Positions 1 to 6,191 of a stretch of 6,191 nt of DNA are shown piece after piece; the stretch's first letter is position 1; every line of letters begins with the position of its first letter. The notes under the pieces were generated by a model. The model ran no database searches. It was not told the DNA's origin and saw nothing but the letters and a program-made list of their open reading frames with translations. The DNA is from Streptosporangiaceae bacterium (GTDB lineage Bacteria > Actinomycetota > Actinomycetes > Streptosporangiales > Streptosporangiaceae): contig JASHQP010000134.1 of assembly GCA_030039095.1 (NCBI GenBank), positions 1-6,191 of the forward strand, read 5' to 3'. Made by a program: the position numbers and the translations under genes.

Positions 1-885
1 GCCGCTGCCGGCGGCTCCTCGGCCCCGCGGTCCCTTGCCGCGCCCGCGGGTGACAGGCCGGCCGGCTTCTGGTACGGGTCCGACAGCCGCCAGGTCACGA
101 TCACCGGGTCCGCGCCGTATTCGGAACCGGTGACCGGCGGCGCCTACGGCGGCTACATCGGGATGACCGGCAACTGGGCGAACCTCACCAACTGCCACAA
201 GATCATCGTCTGGTCCGCAGCCAACAGCGCGCAGGCCAACGCCAACCACGCCAGAGGGCTGGGCGTCGGCACCGGCGTGTACTACTTCATGGGCGGCCCC
301 GGGGTCGACCCGCACTACAACGGCACCGCCACCGAGGCCTCGGCCTGGGGTGCGGAGCAGGCCGGCCGGGCGCTCGCGGACGCCGCGAAGCTGCACGTAA
401 CGTACCCGGTGATCTGGATGGACATCGAGTTGCCCGGCGGGCCGTCCGACTACACCCCGGCGCCGGACAACGGCTGGAACTCGGTGTACACCGCTCCGTG
501 CAGCAGCGTGGTGAAGTCCGGCTTCGTCGCCACGGCCCTCGACCGCGCCGACCTGAACGGGTTCGCGAACTACGTGTCGAACCACTCCGCGTACAAGGTC
601 GGTGTGTACTCGGCCCCGAGCATCTGGTCCTCGATCTTCGGCACCGGGTCCGACGCGTCGATCCCCAACACGTACGAGTGGACCTACGAGTCCTTCACCA
701 GCAGCCTGGCCAATCCGCCCCACAGCTGGTGCCTGACCGGCAGCGCGTCGTCGACCTGCGCGCGCTTCTTCGGCGGCGTCACCAGCGGCAGCAAGTACGC
801 GCTGATGTGGCAGTGGTCGGGCGGCGGCGGCAGCGACAACGGCGTCGGCGACTTCGACCAGATCGACGGCAGCCGCACGCCTTAA
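1..885 (+). CDS. Secreted GH25/DUF1906-like glycoside hydrolase-like protein, 5'-partial
   Basis: The frame is open from the first base to a TAA at 883-885, so the true start and most of any signal peptide lie upstream. The first visible residues are Ala/Gly/Pro/Ser-rich, like the end of a signal peptide or a linker. The domain begins near the GFWYGSD stretch (about 64-84). It then shows features of a lysozyme-type TIM barrel: a strand ending GVYYF (274-288), an Ala-rich helix, a YPVIWMDIE strand with a D-x-E pair (D at 421-423, E at 427-429), GVYSAPSIW (601-627), and a final WQWSGG...DFDQID stretch (about 811-867). In GH25 lysozymes the D-x-E acidic pair is catalytic, so peptidoglycan or another extracellular polysaccharide is a plausible substrate. 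That is inference. Four cysteines suggest an exported, disulfide-bonded protein. DUF1906 (Rv2525c-like) is the main alternative family. Fold-class confidence is fair; substrate is unknown. Confidence 0.72.
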   Translation, partial: AAAGGSSAPRSLAAPAGDRPAGFWYGSDSRQVTITGSAPYSEPVTGGAYGGYIGMTGNWANLTNCHKIIVWSAANSAQANANHARGLGVGTGVYYFMGGPGVDPHYNGTATEASAWGAEQAGRALADAAKLHVTYPVIWMDIELPGGPSDYTPAPDNGWNSVYTAPCSSVVKSGFVATALDRADLNGFANYVSNHSAYKVGVYSAPSIWSSIFGTGSDASIPNTYEWTYESFTSSLANPPHSWCLTGSASSTCARFFGGVTSGSKYALMWQWSGGGGSDNGVGDFDQIDGSRTP

Positions 886-955: not shown

Positions 956-967
956 GGTTACGTGACC
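956..967. promoter_or_regulatory. Operator-like palindrome at the predicted transcription start
   Basis: GGTTACGTGACC is a 12-bp inverted repeat (GGTnACGTnACC) with one mismatched pair of positions. It begins about 6 bases after the -10 element, where a bound repressor would block initiation. The regulator is unknown and no regulator gene is present in the window. The last two bases also join the stem of the leader RNA, so the site could be chance or dual-purpose. Confidence 0.35.
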
Positions 968-1041
968 CTGGATAGGGGTATCTGTAACCTCCGGAAATAC
1001 CAGCACGCTCGCACGGGGAATGGCGTGCTACCTATCCGGGG
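966..1041 (+). promoter_or_regulatory. Candidate structured leader RNA: three-way junction sequestering the RBS
   Basis: Three helices nest almost without gaps. P1 pairs 966-976 (CCCTGGATAGG) with 1031-1041 (CCTATCCGGGG): 11 bp, one G-U. P2 pairs 977-981 (GGTAT) with 997-1001 (ATACC). P3 pairs 1002-1008 (AGCACGC) with 1023-1029 (GCGTGCT), extendable by a U-G pair. Only A1030 is left unpaired at the junction. The 3' strand of P1 contains most of the GGGGG Shine-Dalgarno, so the folded form should hinder translation of the gene starting at 1050. Loop 2 carries CCTCC (988-992), which could pair with GGGG in loop 3 (1015-1018) or, alternatively, with the Shine-Dalgarno. The placement between a predicted start site and the RBS fits a riboswitch or another translational control element. 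I do not recognise it as a known class. Confidence 0.5.
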
Positions 1042-1049: not shown

Positions 1050-2513
1050 ATGCGATTCTCACGCTCGCGGCGCGCCACGAGATGCGCCGCCGTGGCGGCA
1101 ACGGCTGCGCTGGCAGTTTCGCTGGCGTACCCGGCCGCTGCGGCCGCAGGTGCTGGTCTGGGCGATATCATGACCGCGGCGACGAGTTCCGCGGCCATCG
1201 CGTCGCCGGGCTGCGCCTGGCCGGTCGAGAGTACCGCCTCCACCGCCAATGTCGCAGCGCCGGACCCGTTCGCCGCCTACTGGCTCACCCCGTTTTCCAC
1301 GAACAGTAGCGAATCTATAACGGTCAGCGGCCCGTTTCCGACGAGCAGGTTCATGTCCTTCGCCGTGTACAACGACTCTTTTCAGCTGTTCACCAATACC
1401 GTCAATGGGAAAAAGGTTTCTTCGCACCTCTCTGGCTATCAGATAGTGCCGAATCAGGGCACAGGTAACCCGTGGCGCTCCGGCCATGTGCGTAAGGGAC
1501 AGCAGTTCACCGTGCGCCTGAAGCCGACCGTCACGGCCGCGCAGCAGCGCTCCGAGAACGCGATCCCGACGATCGACCAGCAGGCCCCGGCCGGCACGTC
1601 CGGGCCGTCGGGAGTCGGCTACCTGGTCTTCCGGGCCTACGTTCCGGCCGGGGGCGCCGCCGCCGTGCAGCTTCCGTCGGTCACGGTGACCGAGGGCGGG
1701 CGGAGCACGACCCTGGCGCGCTGCAGCGCCGGGAACGGAACCACGTCAGAGGCCGTGTCCGACCAGCACATCACGTCCGCGAACACGCTTGCGGTGCTGA
1801 GAAGCCTGCGCGACGACGGCGTGGCAATGTCGTGCTCTTCCAGCTGCACCGACCCAGAGCTTCAGTACTTCGGCCCGTCGGCCGACTCAGAGGCCGGGCT
1901 CTTTCCGGACCCGGCCGACGGGTACATCGAGATGCGGTTCACGCCCAGGCCCGGGTACGTGGTCGTTACCCACGGCATGGCCCCGACGAGCCCGGTGTCG
2001 GCGGGCCACGGGTCACCCGGAGACACGATCGGCGCCCACCCCGTCGCGTGGGTGAAGCCGAAGTACCAGGTCCTGTCCTGGTCGATCGCCAACTACGTCG
2101 CCACAAAGCCTTATCCGGTCACCGAAGCCAGCCAGGGCACGAGCGTGGAGTTCGGCGGGACCCCGGACTATCTGACGACGCTGCAGAACGGCTACTACAC
2201 GGTGGTGTCCTCGCCTGCCACGGACAAGCCGTCGGCAAAGTCACTGAAGGCCAACGGCGCGACCTGGATTCCGACGTCAGCGGTCTACTCCACCACGCCC
2301 GAGTTCCAGCTGCTGCGGAACGTGCTGCCGCAGCAGTCGACGTACGCGGAGGGATTCGGCTTCATCAAGCCGCCGGCCAACCCGTCCGACATCATCTCGT
2401 CCGCCAAGGTCGAGAAGCAGATGGGCGCGTACTATCCGCAGACCGCACAGTGCCCGATCGCCACGTTCGAGGCCGGTGGCTGGACGGCCTGCCTGGCGGC
2501 CAGCAAGGCTTAG
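1050..2513 (+). CDS. Conserved secreted protein of unknown function
   Basis: This is a 487-residue protein. Residues 1-35 are a clear signal peptide: arginine-rich start (MRFSRSRR), an Ala/Val/Leu core, then an Ala-rich cleavage region ending near residue 32-36. The mature part has six cysteines (C55, C225, C262, C266, C468, C481), allowing up to three disulfides. Recognisable blocks are DPFAAYWLTPF (72-82), SRFMSFAVYND (99-109), a DYQI/NPW-like block (130-142), YLVFRAYVPA (191-200), a PGYVVVTHGMAPTSP block (301-315), LSWSIANYV (342-350), and a C-terminal LLRNVLPQ...MGAYYP segment (421-463). This order resembles an uncharacterised family of exported actinobacterial and proteobacterial proteins I recall only as hypothetical, so no function is proposed. 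Translation is probably controlled by the folded leader just upstream. The first third uses several A/T-rich codons, including two ATA, unlike the rest. It converges on xylA. Confidence 0.85.
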   Translation: MRFSRSRRATRCAAVAATAALAVSLAYPAAAAAGAGLGDIMTAATSSAAIASPGCAWPVESTASTANVAAPDPFAAYWLTPFSTNSSESITVSGPFPTSRFMSFAVYNDSFQLFTNTVNGKKVSSHLSGYQIVPNQGTGNPWRSGHVRKGQQFTVRLKPTVTAAQQRSENAIPTIDQQAPAGTSGPSGVGYLVFRAYVPAGGAAAVQLPSVTVTEGGRSTTLARCSAGNGTTSEAVSDQHITSANTLAVLRSLRDDGVAMSCSSSCTDPELQYFGPSADSEAGLFPDPADGYIEMRFTPRPGYVVVTHGMAPTSPVSAGHGSPGDTIGAHPVAWVKPKYQVLSWSIANYVATKPYPVTEASQGTSVEFGGTPDYLTTLQNGYYTVVSSPATDKPSAKSLKANGATWIPTSAVYSTTPEFQLLRNVLPQQSTYAEGFGFIKPPANPSDIISSAKVEKQMGAYYPQTAQCPIATFEAGGWTACLAASKA

Positions 2514-2589
2514 CGGAGCCGGCCGTCCACCCAGCGCCCAGCCACGCTCACCGGAGCCGGCCATCCACCCAACGGCCACCCGCGCTCAG
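2514..2589. repeat. Imperfect 38-bp tandem duplication between converging genes
   Basis: Two adjacent 38-bp units, 2514-2551 and 2552-2589, match at 32 of 38 positions by hand alignment. Both begin CGGAGCCGGCC and end CGCTCA plus one base. The pair fills the gap from just after the secreted-protein stop to the xylA stop codon (2586-2588), so the xylA end lies inside the second copy. No hairpin followed by a T-run is visible, so a standard intrinsic terminator is not supported on either strand. Confidence 0.75.
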
Positions 2590-3749
2590 CGGACGCCGTA
2601 GAGATACTCGAGGGCGAGCTGGTCCAGGCGCTCGAAGTTCATGCCGCGATCCGCGAGCGACTCGATGTCCGGGGTGAAGCCGCGGATGTCGCGCCAGGTC
2701 TCTCCGCCGCCGAGCGTGGGCAGTGACAGGTCGGGCACTCGGGCGGCCGCCAGGGCATCCGTTACCTCCGGGTCGGAACGGAACGCCCGCACCTTCTCGC
2801 GCAGGATGAGGTAATTGCGCATGCAGGCGGCGGCCGACGCCCAGACCCCGTCGTCGTCCTCGGTCCGCGGCGGCTTGTAGTCGAAGTGCACCGGCCCGTC
2901 GTACCCGCCGGCCTCGAGCGCATCGACCACCCAGAACGCTCCGCGGGCGTTGCCGGCCCCGAACCGCAGGTCCTGGTCATAGCGGGGCCCGTGCTGGCCG
3001 TTCAGGTCGATGTGGAACAGCTTGCCGTGCCACAGGGCCTGGGTGATCGCGTGGGCGTAGTTGAGCCCGGACATCTCCTCGTGCCCGACCTCCGGGTTGA
3101 GACCGACCAGTTCGGGGTGCTCGAGCTCGTTGATGAACGCCAGCGCGTGCCCGGCCGTGGGCAGCAGGATATCGCCCCGCGGCTCGTTGGGCTTCGGCTC
3201 GATCGCGAACCGGAGGTGGTACCCCTGATCGATCACGTAGGCGCTCAGGGTGTCGAACGCCTCCTTGAGCCGGTCCAGTGCCGCCCGGACGTCCTTGGAG
3301 GCGCCGGACTCCGCGCCGTCGCGGCCGCCCCAGCAGACGTAGACCCTGGCGCCGAGCTGCTCCGCGAGGTCGAGGTTGCGCATCACCTTGGCCAGCGCGA
3401 ACCGGCGCACGTCCCGGTCGTTGGCGGTGAACCCGCCCTCCTTGAAGATCGGGTGCCCGAACAGGTTCGTGGTCGCGGTGGTCACCACCAGGCCGGTCTC
3501 GTCGAGCGCCTTGCTGAACGCGGCGATCCGCTCCGCCCGCTCCTCGTCGGTGTCGTCGAACCCGAACACGTCGTTGTCGTGGAAGTTCACCCCGTACGCG
3601 CCGATCTCGGCGAGCTTGCGCACGGCACGCTCGGCGGGCATCGGCGGCCGGACCGCTGAACCGAAGACGTCCACGCCCTGCCAGCCAACGGTCCAGATCC
3701 CGAACGAGAAGTGGTCGGTGGGTGTTGGTGCGTACTTGTCTGTGCTCAC
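2586..3749 (-). CDS. xylA: Xylose isomerase
   Basis: Cytoplasmic TIM-barrel enzyme converting D-xylose to D-xylulose (and glucose to fructose in vitro), the first step of the isomerase route of xylose use. The 387-residue length equals that of Streptomyces enzymes, and similarity is visible end to end. Active-site residues known from the Streptomyces enzyme are present, shifted by three: W19, H57 and D60 (FHDND), F97 (TTNLF), W140, E184 and K186 (IEPKPNEP), E220 and H223 (NPEVGHE), D248 (HIDLNGQ), D258 and D260 (YDQDLRFG), D290 and K292. These cover substrate binding, ring opening and both divalent-metal sites, so the enzyme should be active. The start is GTG at 3749, overlapping the xylB stop by four bases (GTGA), with AAAGGA seven bases upstream inside xylB. 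It is therefore the second gene of an xylB-xylA transcript and probably translationally coupled. Confidence 0.97.
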
Positions 3750-5209
3750 GAGCCGGTCCTTTCGTCCCAGGTGACGGTGTCATCGCGGAGCGCGGCGTGA
3801 CGCTCGCGGATCTGCGGCTGCTCCGCGCCGGTGTAGGTTTTCTCCGGCCGCGGCGGCCACGGTGGCGGCTCCGGGGTCCCGGCCAGCGCCCACGCGGCCT
3901 GGCGGGCCGCGCCGAGGGCGACGTACTCCGCGGCCTCGGGCACGATGACCGGCGAGAAAAAGATCCCCGGTGCGGCCTCGCGGACGGCGGGTGATTTCGC
4001 GCCCCCGCCGCTCAGCAGCACCTGCCCCGAAGCCCGCTCGGTCCCGCAGGCCGTAGCGATCAGGTCGGCCGCGTCGGCCAGCGAGGCGAGCAGCGCCTCG
4101 ACCGCGGCCCGCGCCAGGTTTTCCCTGGTCGCGTTCTGGGTGGTCAGCCCGCGCAGCACCCCGTTGGCGTTCGGCCGGTCCGGGGTCCGCTCGCCGTCGA
4201 GGTAGGGCAGCAGCGTGATCCCGCCCGCGCCGGGCTCGGCGGCCAGCGCCAGGGCGTCGAGCCCGGCGAGGTCGGTGCCGAGCAGCGACGCGGTAGCGGA
4301 CAGCACCAGGCCCGCGTTGATCGTGCACACCAGCGGCAGGAACCGCCCCGTGGCGTCGGCGAACCCGGCCACCGCGCCGGACGGGTCGTCCGCCGGCACC
4401 TCGCTGACCGCGAACGCCGTGCCCGACGTGCCGATGGACACGGCGACGTCCCCGGCCCGCAGGCCCAGCCCGAGCGCAGCCCCCATGTTGTCCCCGGTTC
4501 CGGCGGACACCGCGGCACCCCAGCCGGTCTGCCCGACGGCCTCGCCGGGCGCCGCCACCCGGGGCAGCGTGACCGCGTGCCCGGCGGCCGCAGCAGCCAG
4601 GTCCGGCAGCCAGGCCCCCGACGCGGGCGAGAAATAGCCGGTGCCCGATGCGTCGCCGCGGTCGGTCACCGGCTCTGCTCCTGCCCCCAGCCGCCCCGCG
4701 CCACCGCCCAGCAGCCGCCAGGTCAGCCAGTCGTGCGGCAGCAGCACTGCCGAGACGCGCTTCGCGTTGGCCGACTCGTGCTCGGCCAGCCAGCGCAGCT
4801 TGGTCACCGTGAACGAGGCCGTCGGGACGCTGCCGGTATTCGACGCCCACCACCCCGGCCCGCCGAACTCGCCAACGAGGTCGGCGGCCGCGCCTGCCGA
4901 CCGCAGGTCGTTCCACAGCAGCGCGGGCCGGATCACCGCGCCGTCCTGGTCCAGGGCAACCATCCCATGCTGCTGCCCGGCCACGCCCACGGCTGCTGCC
5001 CGTTCCAGGAGGCCATCACCGGCCTGCTGCAACGCAGACCACCACGCCTCGGGGTCGGCCTCGGTCCCGGACGGGTGCGGCGCGGTACCCTGCCCGACCA
5101 CGGTGCCGTCGTCCGCGTCACAGAGCACGACCTTGCAGGACTGGGTCGACGAGTCTATGCCAGCGACTAGGCGAGATCCGTGCGTTCGGCTCATGACCTC
5201 GACTTTCAT
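3746..5209 (-). CDS. xylB: Xylulokinase
   Basis: FGGY-family sugar kinase that phosphorylates D-xylulose with ATP to D-xylulose 5-phosphate, feeding the pentose phosphate pathway. With the start at 5209 it has 487 residues, normal for the family. Visible motifs: an N-terminal phosphate-binding strand [15 protein letters not shown] (79-83) and WND (99-101) for sugar binding, [11 protein letters not shown] with the expected catalytic Asp at 240, GTSGT (260-264), DGERTP (338-343), and the C-terminal ATP-site SGGGAKSP (about 400-407). The ATG at 5209 is chosen because GGGAGAG lies 10 bases upstream. Alternatives are ATG at 5194 (GAGG only two bases away, but closer to usual family N-termini) and GTG at 5245. 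It is the first gene of the operon, and its last codons form the xylA RBS. Confidence 0.95.
3757..3762 (-). promoter_or_regulatory. xylA ribosome binding site inside xylB
   Basis: On the minus strand AAAGGA precedes the xylA GTG start by seven bases. It supports the unusual GTG start and the 4-base overlap with the xylB TGA stop, an arrangement expected to couple translation of the two enzymes. Confidence 0.7.
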
Positions 5210-5219
5210 GGCGATCAGG

Positions 5220-5226
5220 CTCTCCC
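5220..5226 (-). promoter_or_regulatory. Probable xylB ribosome binding site
   Basis: On the minus strand GGGAGAG lies 10 bases before the ATG at 5209. Spacing is slightly long but better than that of the other two candidate starts, so it decides the annotated xylB start. Confidence 0.5.
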
Positions 5227-5290
5227 GTGAGCCGGACGAGTCCACCTCACCAGAGCGTCAGCAGGTACAAACCGAGGCTACTGCGACGTT

Positions 5291-5404: not shown

Positions 5405-5632
5405 TCAGAGCAGACCCCTCAGCTGATCGGCGGTCATGCCAGCCTGGCGCAGGATGGACGCCAGTGTTCCTGGGCGCACCTCGTCATGGAGTGGCACGAT
5501 CACGATGCGCGGCGGCGATACCTGACGTAATTTGCAGTGGCTGCCACGCGTGCTCACGATCTCGAAACCGGCTTTCTCCAATGCGCGGACAACCCGCTTG
5601 CCCGGTACAACAGGAAGCTGACGAGGACTCAT
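5405..5632 (-). CDS. hicA: HicA-family mRNA interferase toxin
   Basis: A 75-residue basic protein of the HicA (YcfA-like) dsRBD-fold family, toxins of type II toxin-antitoxin modules that cleave RNA when free of HicB. The family pattern is clear: a start PVVPGKRVVRALEKAGFE (7-24), the catalytic-histidine motif RGSH with H32, the strand IVIVPLHDE (43-51), then RPGTLASILRQAGM (53-66). Length is typical for HicA and the key histidine is kept, so it looks intact. Its ATG overlaps the hicB stop by four bases (ATGA). No good Shine-Dalgarno precedes it, so translation probably depends on coupling to hicB. The order is antitoxin first, toxin second. Confidence 0.9.
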   Translation of the reverse strand: MSPRQLPVVPGKRVVRALEKAGFEIVSTRGSHCKLRQVSPPRIVIVPLHDEVRPGTLASILRQAGMTADQLRGLL

Positions 5633-5847
5633 GCCGAGAGGCGGACCTCGATCGGCGCAACGATGGGCTCTGGAAGTGCCTCGGGAGCGGGCTCGTCCTC
5701 GAAGTAGAGCTCGAGCGCTTCCCGGAGGTTGGACAGCGCCTCCTCGATGGTCCGCCCTTGGCTTGCCACCTCAACCTCGACGCAGCGAGCCACGAACCAC
5801 TCACCGTCAGGTACGACGGTCGCAGTCAGCCTGAGAACCTGGCTCAT
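5629..5847 (-). CDS. hicB: HicB-family antitoxin (short form)
   Basis: A 72-residue acidic protein with the HicB N-terminal domain: a strand LRLTATVVPDGEWFVARC (5-22), VEVEVASQG (23-31), and TIEEALSNLREALELYFED (33-51), the standard turn-helix of the family. It should bind and neutralise HicA. There is no room for the C-terminal DNA-binding (HTH or ribbon-helix-helix) domain of longer HicB proteins, so autoregulation through this protein alone is doubtful. The ATG at 5847 lacks a purine-rich Shine-Dalgarno. A TAGCCT 6 bases before the ATG could act as a -10 giving a leaderless transcript, but no matching -35 is seen. It is followed directly by hicA. Confidence 0.88.
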   Translation of the reverse strand: MSQVLRLTATVVPDGEWFVARCVEVEVASQGRTIEEALSNLREALELYFEDEPAPEALPEPIVAPIEVRLSA

Positions 5848-5874: not shown

Positions 5875-5902
5875 GGCGGCGGCACGTTAATTGCACGCCG
5901 CC
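5875..5902. promoter_or_regulatory. Stem-loop at the GNAT-hicB boundary
   Basis: GGCGGCG (5875-5881) and CGCCGCC (5896-5902) form a 7-bp GC stem around a 14-base A/T-richer loop that contains the GNAT stop codon. It lies about 28 bases upstream of hicB. It could end GNAT transcription, although no T-run follows, or mark a recombination boundary. The loop region also carries GCACG twice in direct orientation around TTAATT. Confidence 0.35.
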
Positions 5903-6191
5903 GTTACGAAGATCGGTTCGCTCGCCTTGGCAGGCGGCCGGACCGGGGCGATGAGCCGGGTAAAGCCGAGCCTGCGCACGTTTTCGCGAAGAGCGGCAAG
6001 CGTGGCGACAGACAGGCCCTGGCGCTGGTGGTCTGGATGAACCGCGATCTCCAGCGCGCACACCGTATCGGGGATGACTTCATCCATGGCGTCCTCGGCA
6101 GCCCAGACCGCGATCTGATCCCAGCCCGCGGCCGGGTAGCTGTCGCGGCTGTCCCTGGCGGAGGAGAACGGGACGCTCACTCCCCGCGACA
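5887..6191 (-). CDS. GNAT acetyltransferase, 5'-partial and C-terminally truncated, possible pseudogene
   Basis: The frame is open to the right edge. A GTG at 6180 is the only start seen, but relatives carry about a hundred residues before this point, so the start is probably outside the window. From 6180, residues 36-80 form the GNAT core: ALEIAVHPD (42-50), then the acetyl-CoA pyrophosphate-binding loop QRQGLS (52-57), an Ala-rich helix, and a RLGFTRLIAPVRP strand (70-82). The preceding SVPFS and GWDQIAVWAAED blocks also fit a recognisable actinobacterial GNAT subfamily. In the relatives I recall, APVRPxxKxxEP continues for about a hundred more residues. Here it is replaced after 5914 by an eight-residue tail and TAA. 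The missing C-terminal part suggests a remnant rather than an active enzyme. The acceptor substrate is unknown. Confidence 0.65.
   Translation of the reverse strand, partial: SRGVSVPFSSARDSRDSYPAAGWDQIAVWAAEDAMDEVIPDTVCALEIAVHPDHQRQGLSVATLAALRENVRRLGFTRLIAPVRPPAKASEPIFVTAACN

Follow-up and report, generated by a model that had tools for sequence, protein, structure and literature searches.

A folded leader RNA that may hide the Shine-Dalgarno sequence of a secreted-protein gene in a lineage of uncultured Streptosporangiaceae

The DNA in front of a gene for a putative secreted protein in a Streptosporangiaceae bacterium raises the question of whether the messenger RNA begins with a regulatory structure and, if so, of what kind. 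An earlier note, made from the letters alone, described at positions 966-1041 a three-way-junction RNA that buries the Shine-Dalgarno (SD) sequence of the gene, i.e., a possible riboswitch or temperature-responsive element. Here, this proposal is examined in the window, i.e., the whole stretch of 6,191 nucleotides that was analysed, together with its relatives, and the pairing that fits these relatives is probably a different one.

The gene and the three-helix fold of its leader

The window is G+C-rich DNA, and its closest relatives in homologue searches are actinobacterial. The gene in question (1050-2513, forward strand) encodes a protein of 487 amino acids with an N-terminus that, as judged by eye, resembles a signal peptide. 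It is preceded by a partial open reading frame (1-885), which has no match in Pfam or NCBIfam, and followed, on the opposite strand, by genes for xylose isomerase (xylA, 2586-3749) and xylulokinase (xylB, 3746-5245), which overlap by four bases and converge on the secreted-protein gene. Further along the minus strand are a HicA toxin gene (Pfam HicA_toxin, E 6e-19), which shares the interval 5405-5847 with a small open reading frame, and a partial open reading frame for a GNAT acetyltransferase (5887-6189; Acetyltransf_1, E 1e-4). The small open reading frame beside the HicA gene matches DUF7387 at the cut-off (E 2e-6) and HicB-like families weakly, and the two probably constitute a toxin-antitoxin pair.

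A scan of the 487-residue protein against Pfam and NCBIfam gave no match, none of the 33 and 19 homologues scanned for families scored above the cut-off, and a profile search with distant members of the protein family brought no new names; one distant homologue resembles DUF1254 weakly (E 0.012, below the cut-off). A first structure model built from 33 sequences (pLDDT 37) was set aside. The AlphaFold2 model obtained with 84 sequences (pLDDT 69) matches PDB entry 6ans (E 1e-12) as well as VPA0735/VPA0106 from Vibrio parahaemolyticus (E 3e-7 to 1e-5); the TM-scores, normalised by query length, are modest (0.33-0.44). These entries we take to be DUF1254/DUF1214-type proteins, and the fold predicted for the secreted protein is related to that of such solved structures.

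Within the leader, three helices can form on the forward strand, referred to as P1 (966-976 with CCTATCCGGGG at 1031-1041), P2 (977-981 with 997-1001) and P3 (AGCACGC at 1002-1008 with GCGTGCT at 1023-1029). They are complementary as the earlier note had it, and A1030 is the only unpaired base at the junction, as read from the sequence. The loop closed by P2 (loop 2) carries the motif GTAACCTCC (984-992), of which CCTCC (988-992) is the anti-SD strand, while that of P3 (loop 3, 1009-1022) contains GGGGAATG and shares 8 of its 14 letters with L001. The 3' strand of P1 runs into the SD sequence GGGGG (1038-1042), located seven nucleotides before the start codon (eight in the relative L001, described below).

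Calculated with nearest-neighbour models, i.e., with energies that exclude tertiary contacts, the minimum-energy fold of 966-1041 is the three-helix arrangement with minor differences within loops 2 and 3. Its energy is -35.3 kcal/mol (z -3.7), and none of 200 shuffled sequences was equally stable. The region was also compared with 76-nucleotide segments of both strands (step 8, 60 shuffles each, n = 1530), where 966-1041 was taken at its exact coordinates and the other segments on the grid. Here, its z-score of -4.2 was the best and was reached by 0 of 1530 segments, the runner-up having -4.13; in raw energy, 233 of the 1530 were equal to or below it. The top z-score is thus a narrow one, and the exact three-helix design is lost in both of the relatives examined.

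Comparison with related leaders

A protein search returned 114 homologues, mostly from metagenome sources, for which the names shown were "hypothetical protein"; two of the entries are labelled Streptosporangiaceae or Streptosporangiales. Among genomes of the family, 9 of 341 harbor a homologue at E 1e-30 (two close and seven distant), and at the level of the class the number is 10 of 394, i.e., genome G001 and nine distant ones. Viral contigs and plasmids searched for relatives of the secreted protein yielded none. Close relatives among assembled genomes are found at two loci only. The first, L001, originates from a Streptosporangiaceae metagenome-assembled genome (MAG); its protein is 64% identical, its leader is recognisable, and the partial open reading frame of the window (1-885) is identical in it at 722 of 840 bases. 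The gene neighbourhood of L001 is collinear with that of the window. At the second locus, L002, the protein is 60% identical and the leader is different and shorter, with a weak fold (z -0.32). This leader has a hairpin of its own (2437-2484 of L002), AGCATGC/GCGTGCT, the arms of which are nearly those of P3, followed by a CCTTT/GAGGG hairpin over its SD sequence.

The comparison accordingly consists of two complete leaders as DNA, those of the window and L001, which were aligned without use of structure, and part of a third, back-translated from the homologue P0050, in which many letters are ambiguous and the 5' part is assumed to align ungapped. The N-terminal 60 residues of P0050, used as a query for further read-through leaders, retrieved only P0050 itself. 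Because the contigs of the other metagenome homologues lay outside the comparison, its power is low. The leaders of the window and L001 are identical at 60 of 84 positions, the third codon positions at 292 of 427 and the signal-peptide region at 114 of 161; the stability of the L001 leader is ordinary (z -0.13).

In L001, P3 is kept at 8 of 8 pairs (1009-1022 included), with one double and one single-sided change and six pairs unchanged, and none of its seven pairs is a forced mismatch in P0050 (three forced pairs, four undecided). P2 has undergone three double changes in L001, all of them compensatory, while one pair is unchanged and one has become C-A; this mismatch is also the one forced in P2 of P0050. 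Among the 47 uninterrupted helices of at least four pairs that are possible in the window leader, P2 displays the most compensatory changes. Compensatory changes in homologous leaders, named in the earlier note as a test of its fold, are thus seen in P2 and P3 together (4 of 4 double changes; pairing is preserved at 12 of 13 positions) and are absent from P1 (0 of 4). When sequences were redrawn with the changed columns kept, chance produced the P2 and P3 result in 2.2% of cases; the rate was 6.1% for the double changes considered by themselves, 13% when only those of P2 were counted, and 0.02% under a looser null; for the whole structure, 36 of 500 column shuffles were as good as the observed alignment. 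In view of these rates, the support for P2 and P3 is moderate. The loop 2 motif GTARCCT is kept in L001 though the flanking arms of P2 change, and the codons of P0050 are compatible with it. Furthermore, the anti-SD core, i.e., the pairing between loop 2 and the SD sequence, has 0 of 5 forced mismatches in P0050. Judged by their sequences, the relatives appear to support best the hairpin P3 and the anti-SD helix, with P2 as a probable further element.

The outcome for P1 is the opposite. Of its 11 pairs, seven are unchanged in L001 and the other four are broken without compensation; one of these four lies at the junction and three in the outer, SD-burying half. The outer part of the 5' strand (966-970) pairs at two of five positions there. 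The inner five pairs with the flanking C (GATAG at 971-975 and CCTATC in the 3' strand) are identical in their letters, which is neutral with respect to pairing. In P0050, 4 to 6 of 10 pairs of P1 are forced mismatches for any placement of a one-base deletion, and by hand back-translation the residues of P0038, P0044, P0046, P0049, P0050 and P0054 imply other letters over 1031-1041. The three-way junction as a conserved architecture was therefore rejected, P1 being uncompensated in L001 and mismatched in P0050.

A constraint on the 3' part of the leader is seen in the way in which homologues have been annotated. In 15 of 120 listed homologues, gene callers placed the start at an ATG inside the P3 hairpin (1020), and in 13 of these (all among P0001-P0027) the true start is preceded by MACYLSGGIQ, a stretch that spans the 3' strand of P3 and continues into M in 13 of 13. 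The same 13, which are a selected set in that they are annotated with an N-terminal extension and in which the residues leave third codon letters free, have a mean ungapped identity of 69% in residues 11-40 and 79% over 150 mature residues. The remaining two, P0046 and P0054, read MACSEFGGIQ; these two and six others differ in the 3' part of the leader. From the residues of P0029, P0038, P0044, P0049 and P0050, the distance between the GTG at 1025 and the start codon would be one base shorter, i.e., these homologues would have a leader shortened by one base. The frame relative to the start ATG would then not be kept, so that what is conserved would be the nucleic acid rather than a protein.

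Directly 5' of the fold is a block, CGGCGTGGTTACGTGA (950-965), which is identical in L001 at 15 of 16 bases; few parts of the leader region are better conserved. The block could be a DNA operator or the 5' end of the leader RNA. The segment 950-966 includes a near-palindromic GTTACGTGAC inside CGGCGTGGTTACGTGAC. Further upstream (886-949), BLAST gave no alignment to L001. Between its two genes, L001 harbors a perfect inverted repeat (2830-2869 of L001; arms of 18 bases, loop of 4), and no repeat of this kind was seen by eye in the window. The earlier note had the fold begin just after a predicted transcription start, which could not be confirmed; there is no sigma-70 consensus promoter in 860-1120, and an extended -10-like TGGTATAAC at 942-950, recognised by eye only, is absent from the aligned place in L001.

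Pairing of the Shine-Dalgarno sequence

That CCTCC of loop 2 can pair with the SD sequence was anticipated correctly. The helix has eight base pairs, CCTCCGGA (988-995) with TCCGGGGG (1035-1042), and together with P3 and a small 5' hairpin it makes up a competing fold, referred to as B. The calculated energy of fold B in the window is -37.4 kcal/mol, compared to -38.4 kcal/mol for the three-way fold, and with 60 nucleotides of coding context fold B accounts for about 71% of the predicted ensemble. The counterpart of fold B in L001 has the lowest energy there (-44.2 kcal/mol), and the three-way core is 14.5 kcal/mol worse. By eye, G-C at 993-1037 in the window is replaced by C-G in L001; this exchange disrupts P1 and preserves the anti-SD helix, provided that a one-base bulge is allowed. 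Of 2000 shuffled loop-2 sequences, 0.6% paired with the ribosome-binding site as well as loop 2 of the window does; for L001, 14% of shuffles reached the observed pairing. The duplex of the SD sequence with the 16S tail, the letters of which we assumed from general knowledge, was estimated at -9.5 kcal/mol for both window and L001.

The prediction that the SD sequence is buried holds in the window, where the unpaired probability is 0.002, to be compared with a mean of 0.215 in 300 leaders with a shuffled upstream part, 2.3% of which were as low. In L001, the anti-SD helix is part of the minimum-energy structure, yet the SD sequence is unpaired with a probability of 0.361, and 73% of shuffles were as low. 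This partial and ordinary pairing in L001 is the strongest argument against a conserved brake.

The earlier note had seen in these pairings an obvious two-state switch. In the window, the CCTCC:SD alternative is indeed isoenergetic with the three-way fold, but both folds hide the SD sequence, which means that an exchange between them would not on its own turn translation on, and no obvious on and off states emerge. A response to temperature fared no better; the predicted unpaired probability of the window SD sequence is 0.001 at 20 °C, 0.003 at 42 °C and 0.027 at 65 °C, and an RNA thermometer was rejected because the SD sequence is not predicted to be freed in the physiological temperature range. 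In L001, the predicted value is 0.493 at 20 °C and drops to 0.112 at 65 °C. A kissing interaction between loops 2 and 3, also proposed earlier, was calculated at -8.3 kcal/mol in the window and -9.7 kcal/mol in L001. Shuffled loop-2 sequences match these values often (21% and 26%, respectively), and the interaction was therefore rejected as a special feature.

Known RNA families and possible roles of the leader

The Rfam scan recommended in the earlier note (4227 families of Rfam 15) gave no match in the window to E 5. With the leader alone, to E 10, two hits were obtained at 15.7 and 12.8 bits, to be compared with cut-offs of 96 and 41, and preQ1-II was not among them; neither of two hits in the L001 locus falls in its leader. 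A leader pattern that fits both the window and L001 was found in none of the viral contigs and, among 345 genomes of the order, in G001 alone, where the single copy is located before the secreted-protein gene. The search with model R1 applied strict filters and scored 12 candidates per listed genome (29 genomes); at a threshold of E 0.05, 9 of the 345 genomes gave matches, of which only that in G001 (112.8 bits) stands. For the other eight (23.3-28.9 bits), the number does not exceed that expected by chance at E 0.05 over 345 genomes, and they were rejected; the loop GGGGAAATG is found in none of them, and three resemble one another. On 19 loci of other homologues, R1 gave nothing above 12.2 bits. 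In the titles and opening parts of abstracts listed in searches of open-access literature, the leader is not described, and these searches gave nothing on a riboswitch or structured RNA in Streptosporangiaceae.

Several known systems share traits with the leader. Purine-type riboswitches are built on a three-way junction with three helices and a possible contact between loops 2 and 3, as is the window leader, but the latter has one unpaired base at the junction, a closing stem that is lost in relatives and no Rfam match. PMC1262725 presents the LEU element, with its alternative folds, and the ileS T-box as actinobacterial translational leaders, in which a base helix pairs directly with the SD sequence and the same strands fold alternatively, as in the window. 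Unlike these leaders, that of the window precedes a different gene and is without an Rfam match. The preQ1-II riboswitch class, limited to Bacillota according to PMC11625349, resembles the leader in that an anti-SD strand in a hairpin loop reaches the SD sequence past an embedded hairpin, provided that P2, P3 and the anti-SD helix coexist. In the leader, by contrast, the best nested folds are favoured over the knotted form by roughly 10 kcal/mol (window) and 15 kcal/mol (L001). The rough estimates, which include a pseudoknot penalty of 9.6, are -26.9 versus -38.4/-37.4 kcal/mol in the window and -29.2 versus -44.2 kcal/mol in L001.

The best explanation of these data, to which we assign a probability slightly below one half (about 0.46), is a lineage-specific leader in which P3 and the CCUCC:SD helix hide the SD sequence. 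The segment 966-1049 would be the folded 5' leader of the secreted-protein gene in a lineage of uncultured Streptosporangiaceae. The stable core would consist of P3 and of the helix that CCUCC (loop 2) forms with the GGGGG of the SD sequence, and in the window the leader could fold as a three-way junction too. Pairing of the SD sequence would lower translation initiation, and a protein or small molecule might relieve it, or else the order in which folding proceeds co-transcriptionally. The leader is most likely a simple translational brake rather than a three-way-junction riboswitch; as modelled, the CCUCC:SD helix probably limits translation, and the folded leader is probably functional, as one of the SD-pairing leader RNAs outside Rfam.

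The alternative that survives best, although we consider it rather unlikely, is a folded but unregulated leader, the hairpins of which set only mRNA stability or a constant rate of initiation. It accords with the observations that no ligand and no conserved switch were seen, that the SD sequence is hidden in both window folds, that the L001 leader is unremarkable in stability and SD burial, and that the only genome with the element has a single copy, before this gene. The constraint on the 3' half and the preserved loop 2 motif, however, seem to go beyond what simple stability would need.

A riboswitch-like three-way junction, where P1 closes the junction, buries the SD sequence and toggles with the CCUCC:SD helix upon binding of a putative ligand, is improbable. 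In the window, this fold has the lowest energy, the inner P1 is identical in L001 at 11 of 11 letters, 13 of 13 close homologues called from the ATG in the hairpin share YLS over the 3' strand of P1, and riboswitch base stems that overlap start sites are noted for Actinobacteria in PMC1262725. These points are outweighed by the uncompensated loss of P1 pairs in L001 and the forced mismatches in P0050, by the energy of the three-way core in L001 and by the Rfam result.

We regard it as slightly less probable still that the fold is a product of chance in G+C-rich DNA and that letters are conserved only as promoter or ribosome-binding context. The identity of window and L001, two sequences only, is close to that at third codon positions, and the column shuffles (36 of 500) and the narrow margin of the top z-score point the same way; opposed to these are the double changes, 4 of 4 compensatory, and P3, which is kept in both leaders and uncontradicted in the third. 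An outside chance of about the same order is given to a lineage-restricted translational riboswitch with the P2 loop GTARCCTC, in which CCUC would pair with the SD sequence across the embedded P3 under control of a ligand or protein, with a DUF1254/DUF1214-like target. Such a pseudoknot would fit because P3 and the anti-SD core are kept or uncontradicted in both relatives, P2 nearly so, and P1 is contradicted. Finally, a coding 3' half, with the protein starting at ATG 1020 (MACYLSGGIQM...) as called in 15 of 120 homologues, 13 of them with the same eleven residues, is very improbable and was rejected because the frame is not kept across homologues (one base shorter from GTG to ATG in five), and also in view of the preceding G-run, only one base away (two in L001), and of the signal-peptide-like N-terminus, which by eye begins naturally at 1050.

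More generally, the case calls for caution in that the prettiest minimum-energy fold can be a peculiarity of one sequence, while another pairing fits the relatives. If the lineage-specific leader controls translation, it would be a cis-regulatory RNA outside Rfam from an uncultured actinobacterial lineage and would offer a handle on when a secreted protein without an assigned function is made.
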